Positions 29,166 to 46,448 of a stretch of 48,075 bases of DNA are shown here, in pieces. Position 1 is the stretch's first letter, and each line of letters opens with the position of its first letter. The DNA comes from Spirulina subsalsa CS-330 (GTDB taxonomy: Bacteria; Cyanobacteriota; Cyanobacteriia; Cyanobacteriales; Spirulinaceae): NCBI RefSeq assembly GCF_028330765.1, contig NZ_JAQMTY010000031.1:1-48075 (forward strand), written 5' to 3'. Below the pieces are notes generated by a model, which was not told the origin of the DNA, did no database searches, and saw nothing but the letters and a program-made list of their open reading frames with translations. The translations under genes were made by a program, and so were the position numbers.

Positions 29166-30761
29166 CTACACATCCCCGGTGGCCAGGAGTTGAATCAGGC
29201 GCGGTGTGCCCGGATCGAACCCGGCTACGTCCCAGGATTGGGGGTCGAGGGGATCGACCAGGGAGATCCGGTAGGGCGCGAGGGTGATGTAGACCGCTTT
29301 CGCGTCGGGGTTGACCGCTTGACGGTAGCGGGCGAGGGCTTGGCTGGGGTGTTGACGACCCGCCCAGCTTTCGCTGTCTGTCCAGAAACAGAAGACATCG
29401 GCGTGATAGCGGGTTTCGATCGCCCAGTCGTAGGCTACCGAGGCATCAGTGCCGCCGAAGTTTTGGCGACTGGCTTTCGCCATGGCATCGCTGAAGCTAT
29501 CCCGCGCTGTGATCCCCAAATCGCGGAAGGTGGTGGCAAAGCCGCGAATCATGTAATGTTGTTCCGCTTTGGCCGTAGCCAGAGCCATCACGGTCGCAAT
29601 TTCGCAGCAGGTTAAACCAATGGAGCCGACGGTATGGCAGGACATCGAGCCGGACACATCCACCGCATGGAGGAAGGTTTTCCCCGTGGGTTCGAGCACC
29701 TGGAACGACAGGGCCAAGGCGCGATCGAGGCTGTCGAGAACTTGGGGGATCGGTTCCCAGGTTTTTTGACTTTTGCCGAGTTTGCCGCCGGATTGGTAGG
29801 TTTTCAGGGCTTTGAGGATGTCGATGGGGTGGATGCGTCCCTGGCGGAGGTGGCGGCGATCGCACAATACTTTGCTAACCCGTTTCAGGTTGCCGTGTTT
29901 GCGATCGCCTCGCAGCACCCCCAACGCGGTCAATGATCCCAAGTTCCGCAACAATGCCCCAATCGGCATCTCCTCAAAGAGCAATTGCCACGCTTGCCGA
30001 TCCATCTGGCCCACAGGGGCGGCCATTTCATGGGTGAGGCGACCTTGTTTAATCGCTTCAGGGGTGCGATCGGGGTGGCGTTTGAGCCATTCGTACCACC
30101 AGATTTGCGTGAGGGCTTTGGACGGCGGTTGACCGGGGAGATTTTCCCAGCCGTTCGTGACCCAAGCAAAGAGGCGATCGTGTTCTGGGGTGGGCGGTTT
30201 GACGTGGAACAGCCGCAGGGCATCCCGATGGGAAAACCCATGACGCTGTTGATATTTCAACAGTTGATAGGCCAAGGCGCTCACGTCGGGCCGCGATAAC
30301 CACGCCGTCCCCATCTGCCGCACAATTTTCCCAAACCCCCGCAGAGATTTCGTATAGCTCAACCATTCATAAAAATGGCTGCCGGTACGCACCACCTGGG
30401 GAAAAATGCGCCCAAAGGCCTGTTTGGCGGCGGGGCTTTTCCCCATCGACAACAACACGAGGGCGAAGATCGGCGCACTGTTGTTGAGGGCGCGACCGTC
30501 GGAGGCGTAGAGAATTTCTTGGGCGGTGCGATCGGGATCGGTGGCGATCGCCCCTTGCAACACTCCCATAAAATCCCCCGTTAACTCATGCTTATCGGCG
30601 TAGTAGGTACTCTTCGCCGTGCCGATTAATAAACAACGGCGCAACACTTGCCAATCATCGGCCTGGAACATCCAGCCGCCGGAACGCCCTTGGATCATGG
30701 CACGACCGGGAATCGGTTGGGTTTGGGGTGTTTGACCTTGGGTAAAAAATTGATATGTCAT
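29166..30761 (-). CDS. rsr: Ro60/Rsr-like TROVE domain RNA-binding protein
   Basis: This is a 531-residue orthologue of the Ro60 autoantigen. Residues about 1-350 form the TROVE module, a HEAT-like ring that binds single-stranded 3' ends in its cavity and Y RNA on its surface. Residues about 360-531 form a von Willebrand A domain with an intact MIDAS (DVSGSMS near 367-373, and a later GGTDASVA). In Deinococcus, Rsr with Y RNA guides exonucleases in rRNA and stress-induced RNA turnover. The ATG at 30761 has a strong GGAGG Shine-Dalgarno 7 nt upstream. Two Y-RNA-like genes lie directly upstream on the same strand, strongly supporting the assignment. No PNPase, RNase R, RtcB or RtcA gene is in the window. 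Confidence 0.93.
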   Translation of the reverse strand: MTYQFFTQGQTPQTQPIPGRAMIQGRSGGWMFQADDWQVLRRCLLIGTAKSTYYADKHELTGDFMGVLQGAIATDPDRTAQEILYASDGRALNNSAPIFALVLLSMGKSPAAKQAFGRIFPQVVRTGSHFYEWLSYTKSLRGFGKIVRQMGTAWLSRPDVSALAYQLLKYQQRHGFSHRDALRLFHVKPPTPEHDRLFAWVTNGWENLPGQPPSKALTQIWWYEWLKRHPDRTPEAIKQGRLTHEMAAPVGQMDRQAWQLLFEEMPIGALLRNLGSLTALGVLRGDRKHGNLKRVSKVLCDRRHLRQGRIHPIDILKALKTYQSGGKLGKSQKTWEPIPQVLDSLDRALALSFQVLEPTGKTFLHAVDVSGSMSCHTVGSIGLTCCEIATVMALATAKAEQHYMIRGFATTFRDLGITARDSFSDAMAKASRQNFGGTDASVAYDWAIETRYHADVFCFWTDSESWAGRQHPSQALARYRQAVNPDAKAVYITLAPYRISLVDPLDPQSWDVAGFDPGTPRLIQLLATGDV

Positions 30762-30773: not shown

Positions 30774-30800
30774 AGCCCGTGAGGGCGAATGAAAGAATAT

Positions 30801-30940
30801 CCCCCCGGCTTGCGCCGACCCCCTTAAAAAGGGGGTTCAGGGCTTTGACTTGCGATCAGAAGAATCCCCCCGGCTTGCGCCGACCCCCTTAAAAAGGGGG
30901 TTTTGAACATTCCCCCCTTTTTAAGGGGGCAGGGGGGATC
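30801..30940. repeat. Repeat cluster between the Y RNA genes and rsr
   Basis: Two 37-bp direct repeats (30801-30837 and 30866-30902) each contain CGGC-TTGC-GCCG and CCCCCTTAAAAAGGGGG hairpins. A third, inverted unit (30911-30940) ends in GATC and belongs to the same family as 32-105 and 46285-46314. In the direction of the Y RNAs and rsr, these hairpins follow the second Y RNA and precede the rsr start. They could separate the RNA transcript from rsr mRNA or protect 3' ends. Confidence 0.75.
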
Positions 30941-30942
30941 AA

Positions 30943-31065
30943 CTGGCAGGGCTGGACTTGCACCAGCATCTTCCGCTTAACAGGCGATAACCCTCATTCG
31001 ACGGCCCAACAGGCGAAAAAATGAACAAGGATGGGAGATGTTTTGACTACTTAAACTACCTGCCA
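30943..31065 (-). ncRNA. Y-RNA-like, tRNA-mimicking RNA (distal copy)
   Basis: This RNA of about 123 nt is closed by a perfect 7-bp acceptor-like stem (TGGCAGG with CCTGCCA). It has a D-arm-like stem GTTT/AAAC (after TA) and a T-arm GCTGG-TGCAAGT-CCAGC directly abutting the 3' acceptor strand, all in tRNA order. CATCT/AGATG pairs where an anticodon stem would begin. Between them lies a longer hairpin region with GGCCGTCGAATGAGGGTT, then ATCGC. It shares TGAGGGTTATCGC with the other copy and resembles the Ro-binding part of Y RNAs. No CCA is encoded after the discriminator position. It starts one base after the proximal copy and lies upstream of rsr. The lower part of its central hairpin pairs less well than in copy one. 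Confidence 0.78.
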
Positions 31066-31066
31066 T

Positions 31067-31195
31067 TGGTGTAGCGACGCGGGAGTTGCACCCGCATCTC
31101 CGGCGATTAAGGGGGGTTCGTTCCAAAGCGATAACCCTCAATCTTCGGCCCCGGAGGGCAAAGGATGGTGCTCTACTGATTGAGCTAGCCGCCAC
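31067..31195 (-). ncRNA. Y-RNA-like, tRNA-mimicking RNA with encoded CCA (proximal copy)
   Basis: This 129-nt RNA has an 8-bp acceptor-like stem (GTGGCGGC with GTCGCTAC, two G-U pairs), a discriminator A and an encoded CCA. Its D-arm is TA-GCTC-AATCAGTA-GAGC. The T-arm GCGGG-TGCAACT-CCCGC abuts the acceptor strand exactly as in tRNA. In place of the anticodon arm is a long hairpin: GGC, unpaired CGAA, GATTGAGGG, loop, CCCTTAATC, GCC, extended below by TCCGG/CCGGA and CATC/GATG. The GGC-CGAA-G layout with a following GAG(G)GTTATC matches the Ro-binding stem of vertebrate and bacterial Y RNAs as I remember them. It cannot be an ordinary tRNA because it has no anticodon loop. Its position upstream of rsr supports a YrlA-type assignment. 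Confidence 0.82.
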
Positions 31196-31301: not shown

Positions 31302-31466
31302 GCTTTCGGTGCGGTGGTGCTCCGTCTTGGCTCTGTATTTAAAGTAGGCGGGGGAACTGCCCCAAGGCGAATCGGGTTGGAATCGGGTGAATCCTTGGGG
31401 TAGGCTGGATTACAGACCTTGGGGATCGTTTCAACCCTGGGGATTCCCCACACTTTCACCGCACCC

Positions 31467-34352
31467 ATGGCCCGACCCAACTATGGCCCCACGGCTCAGG
31501 CGCGATCGCTCCACCTCTTCACGCTGTTGCTGGACTATGGCAACGATGAGTTGGATCTTGAACTGGACAAGCTCGAACGGCTGCGGCCTCAGATTCAATT
31601 CCATTGGCAAACGGAGCAGCGGTATGTGGTGCGGACGAAACTGCGCCATTTGGAAACCCTGAGCCGCGCCAGTGCCACCCCCTTAAGCCGTGCCCAGATT
31701 CGAGAAGCCTTGAACCGCTGGGGGGATTTTTTAGAAATTTTGAGCGATCATCGGCCCCAGGTGAGCGGGTCGGAACTGTGGCATTTTTCGGTGAATTTGT
31801 GGCATGGACGGCGCGATCGCGCCGCTAACCTCCGGCGTTTTGTGCAGGAATGGGAAGACCGTCGGCCCGTGAAATCGAAACAGGTCGCCGGCAAACGCAG
31901 CGAGCCGCGAGCCGATGCCGATCACGCTGCCGATCTCGATCCAATGCGGGATCATGATCGGGAGGTGTGGCGATCGCGCTGCCGCACCAGCCTCGAAGCC
32001 CAAAACTATCACCGCCTCACCACCAACCCTCTCACCGCCCCGGATGGGATGCGGTTTGACCATCAGGATCTTTATGTGCCGTTGGCATTAGTGCCGCGAC
32101 CGGTGCGCGATCGCCTTCAGGATGATGCCGAAGAAGACAGCGAAGACGAGGGAGCGATCGTCACCCTTGAGGAACTGCTCAACACCACAACGGGCCGCCA
32201 ACGGTGGGCGATCGTCGGGGAAGCCGGAGCCGGCAAAACTACCACCCTCCAAAGCCTCGCCACCCAACTCCTCGACCGGGGCGCATATCCCATCTGGGTC
32301 ACGTTAGCGGATCTTCAGGGTCAATCCCTCCCGGATTATCTGCTGCAAAACTGGCTCCAACAGGCCACCCAATCCCTACACATCCCCGCCCTGCTCCAGG
32401 CTGAATTATCCCAACTGCTGACCACGGGCAACGCTTGGCTGCTGCTGGATGGCGTGGATGAAATGGCGGGGGACAGTAGCCGAATGTTGGCGCAATTGGG
32501 GCGACAGTTGCGGGGGGTGTTGGGGGGTGTGTCGGTGGTGCTCACCTGTCGGCTCCATGGATGGGAGGGGGCGAAAAATGCCCTCGATGGGTTTACGGCC
32601 TATCGCTGTCGGCGGTTCAGTCTGGCCAGGGACGGAGAGCCGGATCAAGGGGGGCAATTTATCGATCGCTGGTTTGCCGCCCAACCCGAACGCGGGCAAC
32701 AATTACAGACCCGCCTCCACGATCCCCAACACCACACCATCCGGGACGCGGTGGGCAATCCGTTGCGATTAGCGCTACTCTGTCGGGCGTGGTCGCTCAA
32801 TGAGGGGCAATTTCCCCGCAGCCAAGCCCAACTTTACGCCCAATTTGTCACCGCCCTCTACAGTTGGCAACAAGACCGTTTCCCCACCACCCCCGCCCAA
32901 CGTCATCGCCTCAATGGGGTCTTGGCAACCCTTGCGTTTAACGCTTTTGCTGATTCGTCCTTGGGCTATCATCTCCCCGATCCTGTGGTACAGCGGGCGT
33001 TTCGTGAGTCTCCCGACCTTTTGACCCTGGCGTTACAAGTGGGCTGGCTCTATCCGGTGGGGATTCGTGCGGCCACGGCTGATCCGGTGTATCGGTTTTA
33101 TCATCCGTTATTTCAGGCGTATTTTGCGGCGCAGGTGATTCCGGGGGCGGCGTTTTGGCTCGATCCGGCGGCAGATTATCCGGCGTTGAATCCGCGCTGG
33201 TGGGAGGTGTTGCGGTTGTGGATGGGGCGGGAGGATGGGGCGAAGGTGGAGAAGGAGGGCGCGATCGCTGCCCTGCGATCGTTCGACGATGGCGGCGTGG
33301 GACTGTATCGCGATCGCGCCCAAGGACTCGCGGCGTTGCTGTTGGCGGAATTTCCCGACTCGGAACAGGCGGCGGATCTAATGGGGGTGATCCTAGACTG
33401 GCGGTTTGGCCCGACGTTTTCGGCGACAATGCCCCAGGGTCATTCTGTGCCGCGCTTAAACCTGGCCCGGCGAGTGGTGGTACAAACCGATCGCACCCTT
33501 GCGATCGCTCACCTGGTGGAATTCCTTGACACCCAAACCCACCCCTTTCCCCGCTGGCAAGCCGCTTACACCCTGGGCAAAAGTCTCGCGCCGGGCCATC
33601 CCGTCGCGGTGGCGACGTTGTGCGATCTGCTCCAAACGGCCCCCGATGCCTATCGCCGCTGGCAATTCAGCGACAGCCTCTGCCGAGTGCAGCCGGGGCA
33701 TCCCGACGCGATCGCCACCCTCACCGACTTGCTTCAACCCGAACACCCGCCGAAAATTCGCTGCAAAGCCGCCTACAGTTTGGGTAAATTTATCCCCGGC
33801 CATCCCGACGTGATAGTGGCTGACGTGATAGTGGCTGACGCGATAGTGGCTAACGCGATAGTGGCTAACGCGATCGCCACCCTCGAAACCCTCCGCGATA
33901 CCGTCCAAACCCCCGGCCTGCTCACCCAAATCCGCGACAACCTTCACCGCCTCCAGCACGGCGCACCCCCACCGATGCCGACAAAATCCCGCCCAAGCAA
34001 ACCCGTCTCTGAACGTGCGATCGCCAGCATCACCGCCCGTCTCCACGCCGCCCCCAACCCCACCGAACAACGCCGCCACGCCATCCGCCTCGCCCGCTTC
34101 CAACCCGATCACCCGGACGCGATCGCCACCCTTCTCCACCTCCTGATCACCCCCGGCCATCCCGCCGCCCTCTACAAACGCCTCGCCAAGGACATTAAAA
34201 CCGTCGCTCAAACCGAACACAATCCCCAAATCGTGGGGTCATTAAAGACTGCGATCGCCCAGCTTCCCCCCTCGGTGCAGCGTCACGAGTGCGATCGTAT
34301 CCTTTGGTATTGCACCGATGCCCTGGCCTATCACGAATTTTTGCTGTTGTAG
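31467..34352 (+). CDS. NACHT-domain NTPase with C-terminal HEAT-like repeats
   Basis: This 961-residue protein is of the STAND/NLR-like type. Residues 1-145 or so form a helical N-terminal domain that I recall from cyanobacterial NACHT proteins but cannot name. A linker follows, then a NACHT NTPase with P-loop GEAGAGKTTTL (about 250-260) and Walker B LLLDGVDEMAG (about 325). A helical region and HEAT-like repeats (HPDAIATLTDLL units) come after about residue 690. Bacterial NACHT proteins often act in antiphage defence, sensing with the C-terminal repeats and acting through the N terminus. No toxic effector domain is recognisable here. I prefer the ATG at 31467 (MARPNYGP), which matches homologues; the frame is open to 31419. 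A 15-bp microsatellite lies in the repeat region. Confidence 0.86.
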   Translation: MARPNYGPTAQARSLHLFTLLLDYGNDELDLELDKLERLRPQIQFHWQTEQRYVVRTKLRHLETLSRASATPLSRAQIREALNRWGDFLEILSDHRPQVSGSELWHFSVNLWHGRRDRAANLRRFVQEWEDRRPVKSKQVAGKRSEPRADADHAADLDPMRDHDREVWRSRCRTSLEAQNYHRLTTNPLTAPDGMRFDHQDLYVPLALVPRPVRDRLQDDAEEDSEDEGAIVTLEELLNTTTGRQRWAIVGEAGAGKTTTLQSLATQLLDRGAYPIWVTLADLQGQSLPDYLLQNWLQQATQSLHIPALLQAELSQLLTTGNAWLLLDGVDEMAGDSSRMLAQLGRQLRGVLGGVSVVLTCRLHGWEGAKNALDGFTAYRCRRFSLARDGEPDQGGQFIDRWFAAQPERGQQLQTRLHDPQHHTIRDAVGNPLRLALLCRAWSLNEGQFPRSQAQLYAQFVTALYSWQQDRFPTTPAQRHRLNGVLATLAFNAFADSSLGYHLPDPVVQRAFRESPDLLTLALQVGWLYPVGIRAATADPVYRFYHPLFQAYFAAQVIPGAAFWLDPAADYPALNPRWWEVLRLWMGREDGAKVEKEGAIAALRSFDDGGVGLYRDRAQGLAALLLAEFPDSEQAADLMGVILDWRFGPTFSATMPQGHSVPRLNLARRVVVQTDRTLAIAHLVEFLDTQTHPFPRWQAAYTLGKSLAPGHPVAVATLCDLLQTAPDAYRRWQFSDSLCRVQPGHPDAIATLTDLLQPEHPPKIRCKAAYSLGKFIPGHPDVIVADVIVADAIVANAIVANAIATLETLRDTVQTPGLLTQIRDNLHRLQHGAPPPMPTKSRPSKPVSERAIASITARLHAAPNPTEQRRHAIRLARFQPDHPDAIATLLHLLITPGHPAALYKRLAKDIKTVAQTEHNPQIVGSLKTAIAQLPPSVQRHECDRILWYCTDALAYHEFLLL
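33807..33866 (+). repeat. In-frame 15-bp tandem repeat in the NACHT gene
   Basis: Four 15-bp units (GACGTGATAGTGGCT and variants with C or A changes) are followed by a partial unit that merges into GCGATCGCC. They encode a pentapeptide VIVAD/AIVAN array inside a HEAT-like repeat. The period is a multiple of three, so copy-number change would lengthen or shorten the protein without a frameshift. Confidence 0.88.
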
Positions 34353-46123: not shown

Positions 46124-46448
46124 TCGATGGAGCGATCGCACGCGGAAGGGACTGCGATCGCTCGCTCCATGGCTAATCGTCACAAATATTGTTGGCCAGA
46201 CCCCATTTTTTGCTGAATACTGGAGCAGTGATCAACGTATTGGGAATCTTGATAGCAAATTGCGAAACGATGAGAACGCCACCGCCCCCTTTTTAAGGGG
46301 GATTGAGGGGGATCTTTGTACCTTGTGTTGAGGGAAACCGCTATAAAATTACCTGGCAGCAAGGATTTCTCGCAGCCTGGGTTGTGCTCAACGGTTGGCA
46401 TTGCGACCGACGATCAATCATTACCGAAACTACTCAGGACTGTTAATT
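46124..46448. other. Intergenic region upstream of the GH57 gene
   Basis: This 325-bp spacer contains the dispersed palindrome at 46285-46314 and several HIP1-like GCGATCGC sites just after the kinase stop. I see no supported gene. The GH57 promoter probably lies between the palindrome and 46448, but no convincing boxes are visible. Confidence 0.4.
46285..46314. repeat. Copy of the C5/G5 palindromic repeat
   Basis: The CCCCCTTTTTAAGGGGG core is followed by ATTGAGGGGGATC. It matches the right half of the element at 32-105 and the inverted unit at 30911-30940, which share the core and the terminal GGGGGATC. It is a single half-element. Confidence 0.75.

Follow-up and report, generated by a model that had tools for sequence, protein, structure and literature searches.

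Candidate Y RNAs of cyanobacterial Rsr with tRNA arm order and a predicted Ro element inside the anticodon arm

Two tandem RNAs encoded beside the rsr gene of Spirulina subsalsa CS-330 were analysed together with related loci. With a probability of about 0.82, RNAs of this kind are the Y RNAs of cyanobacterial Rsr, each with a full tRNA body in native order and a predicted Ro element in the anticodon arm, and are circular permutants of YrlA. This reading was preferred because of the anatomy of the RNAs, the conservation and compensatory changes of their helices, their association with rsr, and the collinearity obtained with one YrlA RNA. The chain order would be what is new; the parts appear as in YrlA, and the function is probably of the same kind. 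As judged from the genomes compared, cyanobacteria with rsr usually carry adjoining tRNA-like genes with a putative Ro hairpin in the anticodon arm. A preliminary description of the locus had proposed Y-RNA-like RNAs that mimic tRNA and go with rsr, their ends lying in the tRNA part and their Ro element inside, and this predicted arrangement is supported.

The window (the whole stretch of DNA that was analysed, 48,075 nt of contig NZ_JAQMTY010000031.1) was read as containing, in tandem on the minus strand, RNA1 (31195-31067; type 1) and RNA2 (31065-30943; type 2). Downstream in the same orientation lies rsr (29166..30761, minus strand), encoding a Ro60/Rsr-like protein of 531 aa. The earlier naming of this neighbour as a Ro60/Rsr gene was borne out by Pfam matches to vWA_Ro60 (3.1e-39) and TROVE (8.1e-16) and by a phmmer match to D. 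radiodurans Rsr 2nvo (9.4e-73). RNA2 is separated from rsr by 182 nt; over 82 regions the median distance from the last RNA to rsr was 52 nt, and in 46 of them the nearest RNA lay ≤60 nt from the rsr start codon. No sigma-70-like promoter was found near RNA1 or RNA2 by a simple scan. ARAGORN called zero tRNAs in the window and Rfam gave zero matches at gathering thresholds; sub-threshold miRNA-like Rfam matches in the window were judged to be chance. A 37-mer palindromic repeat is present between RNA2 and rsr in two identical copies (30799-30835 and 30864-30900, minus strand). With up to 3 mismatches allowed, no further copies were found in the rest of the genome; the 17-nt core of the repeat occurs additionally at 45-61, 76-92, 30913-30929 and 46285-46301 of the window. 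The divergent neighbour (31419-34352, plus strand) encodes a protein with EAD4, NACHT and HEAT-repeat domains, presumably of the type known from bacterial conflict systems. One scan with close-relative patterns confirmed no close relatives of the S. subsalsa Rsr on viral contigs.

All arms claimed for the two RNAs at the outset, namely a 7-8 bp acceptor, a D arm and a T arm abutting the acceptor strand in tRNA order, are present in the sequence (all features below are on the minus strand; the candidates and the alignments A1, type 2, and A2, type 1, are defined in the following paragraphs). RNA1 (31067..31195) is a whole tRNA-like RNA with an internal predicted Ro element. Its 8-bp acceptor stem GTGGCGGC/GTCGCTAC (5' strand 31188..31195, partner 31078-31071) is followed by A and then by an encoded CCA, the 3' strand, A and CCA together occupying 31067..31078. 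The D arm GCTC-AATCAGTA-GAGC (31170..31185) has TA immediately 5' of it, and RNA1 and RNA2 both have TA at positions 8-9; the D stem was 100% paired in the 18 type-1 rows. The 5' side CC of the outer anticodon stem (31167..31168) pairs with GG at 31101-31100 (84.8% paired in type 1), and zero double changes were found in this stem among the 18 rows of A2. The lower Ro helix is a local, loop-closed hairpin, GCCC-TCCG-GGGC (31148..31159), with 87.5% of cells paired and at least 3 of its 4 pairs kept in 18/18 type-1 RNAs. The bulge CGAA (31144..31147) forms the 5' side of the Ro internal loop; a CGA, CGC or CGT pattern fits 190/206 candidates at this place, with CGAA itself in 98. The 9-bp upper Ro helix GATTGAGGG/CCCTTAATC and the loop between its strands extend over 31105..31143 (85.8% paired, 3 pairs with double changes), and the inner TCG/CGA stem of this long loop is poorly kept in type 1 (58.8% and 34.4% paired). 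The T arm GCGGG-TGCAACT-CCCGC (31079..31095) abuts the acceptor strand.

RNA2 (30943..31065) is likewise a whole tRNA-like RNA, with the predicted Ro element inside the anticodon stem and without an encoded CCA; its score with the covariance model R1 was 98.8 bits, RNA2 itself being among the 36 training rows. The 7-bp acceptor stem is TGGCAGG/CCTGCCA (5' strand 31059..31065, partner 30950-30944), and the D arm was placed at 31040..31056 by alignment. The 3' strand of the upper Ro helix, ATCCTTGTTC (31023..31032, partner 30999-30990), comes first; across the 36 A1 rows, for whose selection this helix was a filter, 89.4% of its cells were paired. Next are the lower Ro hairpin GCC-TGTTG-GGC (31004..31014; 93.0% paired, with double changes at all four pairs in A1), the Ro bulge CGTC (31000..31003, read from the sequence), and the 5' strand of the upper helix, GAATGAGGGT (30990..30999), assigned by A1 pair counts and length covariation. 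A 3-bp stem with a 7-nt loop, CGC-CTGTTAA-GCG (30974..30986), forms an anticodon-like arm whose loop is identical to that of the host tRNA-Asn(GUU), and the T arm GCTGG-TGCAAGT-CCAGC (30951..30967) abuts the acceptor strand.

Several particulars of the preliminary description were sharpened by this anatomy. The 13-mer it had listed as common to both RNAs, and the 9-bp stem GATTGAGGG/CCCTTAATC of RNA1, are present; the shared segment is in both RNAs, but RNA2 pairs it upstream (with ATCCTTGTTC) and RNA1 downstream. A long hairpin had been thought to replace the anticodon arm, whereas the insert in fact interrupts the anticodon stem on its 5' strand, and the CGC-CTGTTAA-GCG arm persists in RNA2. 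For the Ro region of RNA1, the CGAA and the 9-bp stem stand, but the GGC/GCC lower helix is complete in only 6/18 aligned type-1 RNAs. Folding distinguished RNA1 from shuffles (z = -3.05) but not RNA2 (z = -0.78, not better than shuffles).

Relatives of the S. subsalsa Rsr were collected from 56 named loci and from the 41 genomes, among 386 of the phylum, that have an rsr match. A descriptor consisting of 5/5 T-stem pairs and then a 7-nt acceptor strand with at least 6/7 pairs was applied to the final 1000 nt before rsr in 86 regions, 83 of which are distinct. It gave 175 hits in 79/86 regions, whereas the reverse strand yielded 1 hit and each of three dinucleotide shuffles none. Extension to as much as 3.5 kb upstream left 211 distinct candidates, 206 of them with the shared TTATC-type motif; a few of the 206 resemble descriptor noise (e.g., L036 at 3452, L043 at 3049, L051 at 3003, L039 at 658). 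The CGAA-type bulge and the upper helix are conserved, and would constitute a predicted Ro60-docking element encoded with rsr. R1 was built from 36 type-2 RNAs, 25 of them from the 56 named loci and the remaining 11 from the 386-genome set (nine further rsr loci and the window). It gave 196 matches, a few of only tRNA length, at 55/56 named rsr loci, with 194/196 on the rsr-sense strand; the RNA was absent from named locus L057. Eleven matches were obtained on the rsr-sense strand of the Prochloron locus L061, spanning >3 kb. RNA1, which is outside the training set, scored 66.8 bits.

In the 386 phylum genomes, 32 had a best R1 E ≤1e-11, and all 32 were within the 41 with an rsr match, part of these by construction because training rows came from that set. 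Every phylum genome gives some R1 match because the model detects ordinary tRNAs too. In genomes without rsr the best R1 E was 9.6e-10 or worse, and among the matches listed their scores reached 59 bits, almost all over 75-76 nt and one over 168 nt. Nine rsr-matching genomes lack a strong RNA: G078 has a 57.8-bit R1 match adjoining rsr; G021 and G041, with divergent Rsr, have no strong R1 match; and in G030, G127, G360, G018, G032 and G038 the rsr matches are weak or partial. Outside the cyanobacteria, Paenactinomyces (L075) and Lihuaxuella (L080) encode an Rsr 65-68% identical, with several R1 matches upstream, which suggests that the whole rsr-RNA unit was transferred between phyla. Plasmid pAQ7 of the laboratory strain Picosynechococcus sp. 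PCC 7002 (L095) carries rsr and three R1 matches at 1970-2096, 2118-2227 and 2250-2375 (100.4, 71.0 and 48.9 bits); the PLSDB table lists no gene at these positions, and that table leaves out RNA genes.

Conservation of the fold was assessed in two alignments. A1 is a MAFFT alignment, not fitted to any structure, of 36 of the 53 type-2 representatives, from 158 filtered by helix score, length and identity; the other 17, many of them class-II-like or with extra hairpins, were omitted by eye. A2 holds 18 of 27 type-1 representatives, after removal of six odd ones and then of the longer-loop L012, L013 and L032. Since irregular rows were excluded, the pair counts of A1 and A2 describe regular members. 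The proposed fold had 93.9% of A1 cells paired (shuffled, 80.8%; slid, 40-51%), and its double-change cells numbered 173, as against 46 in shuffles. Rows of A1 had been selected for paired acceptor and T stems, whose 100% pairing therefore holds by construction, and filtered on the score of the upper Ro helix. The four helices outside the selection (D stem, split outer anticodon stem, lower Ro hairpin and mini anticodon stem) were 91.6% paired vs 78.9%, with 67 double-change cells vs 20.5. None of 500 shuffles was as high on either measure, and for further pair types 7/500 were as high. The outer anticodon stem of A1, the halves of which flank the Ro element, was 95.6% paired with 20 double-change cells. 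A2 was 88.9% paired vs 81.3%. Compensatory changes of the stems at related loci, which the preliminary description had named as a check, were thus found, together with co-occurrence with rsr.

Run without constraint, RNAalifold found 19 pairs, those of the acceptor, D, lower hairpin and T helices; it missed the upper Ro helix and the anticodon stems, which consequently rest on pair counts and partial length covariation. The upper Ro helix varies mainly on one side in A1. Its length covariation was tabulated as 71/1/35/21, the 35 having an extra base on only one strand (147/206 candidates were parsed, 19 of these falling outside the table), and this backs the upper Ro helix only in part. The insert with the Ro motif is among the best conserved parts of the RNAs. 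Many RNAs have a similar acceptor, the first pair being U-A in 25/36 A1 rows, though the anticodon-like loops differ.

The tRNA nature of the RNAs was examined separately. In 12 of 18 relatives' loci the Rfam tRNA model (RF00005) accepted 23 full-length RNAs (110-142 nt) above gathering at 33.7-54.7 bits, and four additional half-length matches were obtained in the 18 loci; six of the 18, including L033, had no full-length match. Two of the three PCC 7002 copies were above tRNA gathering (47.1 and 37.0 bits). RNA2 of the window reached 21.7 bits over its 3' part only, below the gathering threshold of 29, and RNA1 was unreported by this model. Of the 206 candidates, 88 encode CCA at either of the two positions where it would be expected (31 and 57), and the nine next offsets, taken as a control, hold 0-13 each. 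An extra G:C pair (G-1:C73) is present in 121/206 candidates; a histidine-tRNA reading of this pair was dropped because CCA with G-1:C73 lies mostly one base further, i.e., after an 8-bp acceptor (51 vs 7).

A D-loop GG goes with U55 in the T loop, and loss of GG goes mostly with G55 (157/3/7/35; 202/206 parsed; Fisher p about 1e-28 with relatedness ignored, several exceptions resembling descriptor noise), a correlation such as the elbow contact in a folded tRNA would give. The T loops of RNA1 (31090-31084) and RNA2 (30962-30956) have G at position 55 and their D loops are without GG; since position 55 is G, pseudouridine 55 is impossible in either. No uninterrupted anticodon arm is present, the Ro element splitting the arm. 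A 3-bp stem with a 7-nt loop was found at a fixed distance 3' of the Ro element in 80/206 candidates, with U33 in 76/80 and a purine at position 37 in 73/80; 126/206 candidates have no such arm at the expected place. Among 47 distinct loops, 9 were identical to anticodon loops of the window genome (32 loops), compared with 3.5 when shuffled (2/2000 as high). By motif, D arms fell into a common class I (159/206) and into classes that we take to be Leu-type (8), Ser/Leu-type (7), Gln/His/Cys-type (16) and other (16). Assignment of donor tRNAs by nearest host D arm was also tried and gave no coherent donor. ARAGORN with introns allowed, run on both strands at lowered score, made 786 calls and was too permissive to count as evidence.

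Comparison with YrlA was made by model search and by arm order. The preliminary description had invoked the YrlA class; the Rfam YrlA model (RF02553, threshold 69 bits) gave no match at the locus; its best score in the genome itself was 15 bits, elsewhere. No YrlA match above gathering was obtained in the 18 relatives' loci, in three phage loci (the three examined from 343 records of phage Ro-like genes) or in two loci on proteobacterial plasmids. Below gathering, YrlA matches close to rsr were found in the Sparky, Cashline, Shinella and Bosea records, that of the Shinella plasmid (L097 3501-3633) scoring 64 bits against the gathering threshold of 69. The Shinella order is lower Ro helix, internal loop, upper helix, T arm, acceptor hairpin, D arm, upper helix, lower helix; the type-2 order is acceptor, D arm, upper helix, lower hairpin, internal loop, upper helix, anticodon-like arm, T arm, acceptor. 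The topology that the preliminary description gave for YrlA, with the Ro stem made by the RNA ends, agrees with the Rfam YrlA alignment and with a passage of PMC8394870, according to which the 5' end pairs with the 3' end to make the Ro-binding stem. The ends of the cyanobacterial RNAs pair as an acceptor stem, not as a Ro stem.

A sequence profile of A1 matched the native Shinella YrlA in two pieces of swapped order (14.4 and 6.0 bits); with the acceptor loop as the opening point, the same RNA was matched as a single collinear piece (24.6 bits). The best twelve cut points were all in the Shinella acceptor loop or the adjacent 5' acceptor strand, and 20 letter shuffles gave 0.5 bits once and otherwise nothing. 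With the Bosea YrlA the best piece scored 17.2 bits opened or not, and a second, insignificant piece (1.7-2.7 bits) went from swapped to collinear order on opening. R1 matched YrlA-like loci in native order only partially, at 22.7-36.1 bits, lower than it matched ordinary tRNAs. From the arm-order comparison and the collinearity of the opened Shinella YrlA, the cyanobacterial RNAs would be the YrlA parts in tRNA order. The 'reverse topology' first suggested is thus right in placing the ends in the tRNA part and the Ro element inside, but is better put, on the one YrlA, as a circular permutation. By reading, type 1 opens the Ro element within the internal loop, which would make three chain orders of one element. 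In the acceptor loop of the Shinella YrlA (L097 3501-3633), the 5' acceptor strand is preceded by C-CCA and a short spacer. Such an arrangement is a feature of permuted tRNA precursors, and this YrlA may be cut into a two-piece RNA. YrlA has already been published as a circularly permuted tRNA, according to passages of PMC11472068, and carries dihydrouridine (DusA) and pseudouridine (TruB) according to a passage of PMC8394870.

Two loci with divergent rsr extend the picture. In G044, from another class of the phylum, a divergent rsr has downstream of it a single array of 20 tRNAs called by ARAGORN (L144 138-3317, G044:C179, minus strand; ARAGORN, Rfam and R1). This array contains a sub-gathering YrlA match (38.4 bits, ~370 nt downstream of rsr) with, by reading, the T arm ahead of the D arm, and also two tRNA-order RNAs with R1 scores of 71.2 and 45.9 bits; the 45.9-bit RNA scored 35.1 bits with the tRNA-Sec model (RF01852, gathering 47). 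An apparent 177-aa ORF lies between tRNAs. Both putative Y RNA forms thus appear to be in one tRNA array, and because all are on one contig their co-occurrence is unaffected by assembly contamination; the contig may belong to a mobile element. Upstream of the divergent rsr of G041, matches to the nematode sRNA family ceN72-3_ceN74-2 were seen at L146 5031-5096 and 5171-5236 (minus strand; G041:C42), at 37.4 and 31.3 bits, below the gathering threshold of 38. Nematode sbRNAs are homologous to Y RNAs, as stated in a passage of PMC4726728, which also reports that Y RNA levels drop where Ro60 orthologues are missing.

Other explanations were weighed against the same data. Real tRNA genes with a new intron or a decaying insertion, either spliced or dead, would account for the many relatives accepted by the Rfam tRNA model and by intron-allowing ARAGORN, and for anticodon-like loops identical to host loops. 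This is very unlikely, as the insert, which bears the Ro motif, is one of the best conserved regions, acceptors are similar despite differing loops (U-A first pair in 25/36), 126/206 candidates have no anticodon-like arm, strong copies occur only in genomes with an rsr match, and the intron-allowing search was very permissive (786 calls). It is very unlikely that the RNAs are ordinary, merely divergent YrlA RNAs of known topology: no RF02553 match was obtained at the locus and none above gathering in the 18 relatives' loci, the order of the arms is different and rotation restores collinearity for the one well-aligning YrlA, even if the RNAs do adjoin rsr, have D arm, T arm and Ro parts in common with YrlA and give partial R1 matches with it (22.7-36.1 bits).

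A cis-acting 5' leader of the rsr mRNA that controls rsr expression, with no free RNAs, fits the position of the RNAs upstream in the same orientation, the nearest being ≤60 nt from the start codon in 46/82 regions. It fits poorly with 11 copies over >3 kb in one locus, with encoded CCA ends and with the G044 copies downstream of rsr within a tRNA array, and is held to be as unlikely as divergent YrlA; a leader role may, however, exist alongside a free RNA form. Chance folding, to which the failure of RNA2 alone to fold better than shuffles might point, has a negligible probability, being refuted by conservation (descriptor controls, A1/A2 pairing, R1 distribution and D/T-loop correlation).

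If the RNAs are the Y RNAs of cyanobacterial Rsr, a transcript reading into rsr would contain the co-transcribed RNAs, and tRNA-processing enzymes (RNase P, RNase Z and CCA enzyme) would cut the tRNA-like ends to give stable RNAs of ~125 nt. Rsr would bind the internal Ro element, and the protruding tRNA body could offer PNPase or some tRNA-binding partner a place to dock; a docking role of the tRNA-like module of YrlA is reported in a passage of PMC8394870. The 8+5-bp acceptor/T domain of RNA1 and many relatives may bar entry into translation. More tentatively, and with some doubt on our part, tRNA-order Y RNAs could have arisen by repeated capture of tRNAs of several types, including class II Leu/Ser-like ones, with CCA maturation by the tRNA pathway and possibly with charging, and YrlA could be the permutant, perhaps via a precursor opened at the acceptor loop. 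The permuted-precursor idea was put forward because the Shinella YrlA has C-CCA exactly at its acceptor loop. If true, Y RNA and tRNA would be the two ends of one evolutionary series, with both topologies in one array.

A second chain topology with the same parts would be a natural test of what is recognised by Rsr and its effector, the arrangement in space or the order along the chain. Questions beyond those of YrlA follow from the free acceptor ends, namely RNase P processing, CCA, charging and ribosome exclusion by the 8+5 domain. Up to 11 RNAs adjoin a single rsr, which suggests that one Rsr has several partners; the array containing both forms is relevant to the origin of circularly permuted RNAs, and the same parts with a different opening point are a hint at a relationship between Y RNAs and tRNAs. 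No cyanobacterial Y RNAs were found in titles and abstract openings of open-licence literature among the matches listed. One primary bacterial Y RNA paper reportedly surveyed >250 species, and an earlier mention of the cyanobacterial form is possible because of that breadth.

Compared with known systems, the locus has a homologous protein (2nvo) in common with the Rsr/Y RNA/PNPase complex of D. radiodurans (RYPER) and, by analogy, would have the same division of labour between a Ro stem and an effector module; it differs in an RNA topology unlike that of the published YrlA. In tRNA-Sec, an 8-bp acceptor is combined with a 5-bp T stem. RNA1 and many relatives resemble tRNA-Sec (RF01852) in having an 8-bp acceptor and a 5-bp T stem, but RNA1-like RNAs hold the putative Ro element in the anticodon arm. 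With tRNA (RF00005) the RNAs share arm order, TA at 8-9, the T-loop motif, correlated D and T loops and CCA, and differ from it by a ~50-nt insert in the anticodon arm and, in many, by the G-1:C73 pair. With YrlA (RF02553) they share the adjoining rsr, a Ro stem with a CGAA-containing internal loop, a D arm, a T arm and an acceptor helix, and with the Shinella YrlA also an anticodon-like mini-hairpin 5' of the T arm (AGG-CTGTTAA-CCT there); the Bosea YrlA has a CTCATAA stretch without a stem at that site. The cyanobacterial chain ends at the acceptor whereas YrlA ends at the Ro stem; its D arm precedes the Ro element and its T arm comes after; and its acceptor is open, often with an encoded CCA, while its Ro stem is loop-closed.
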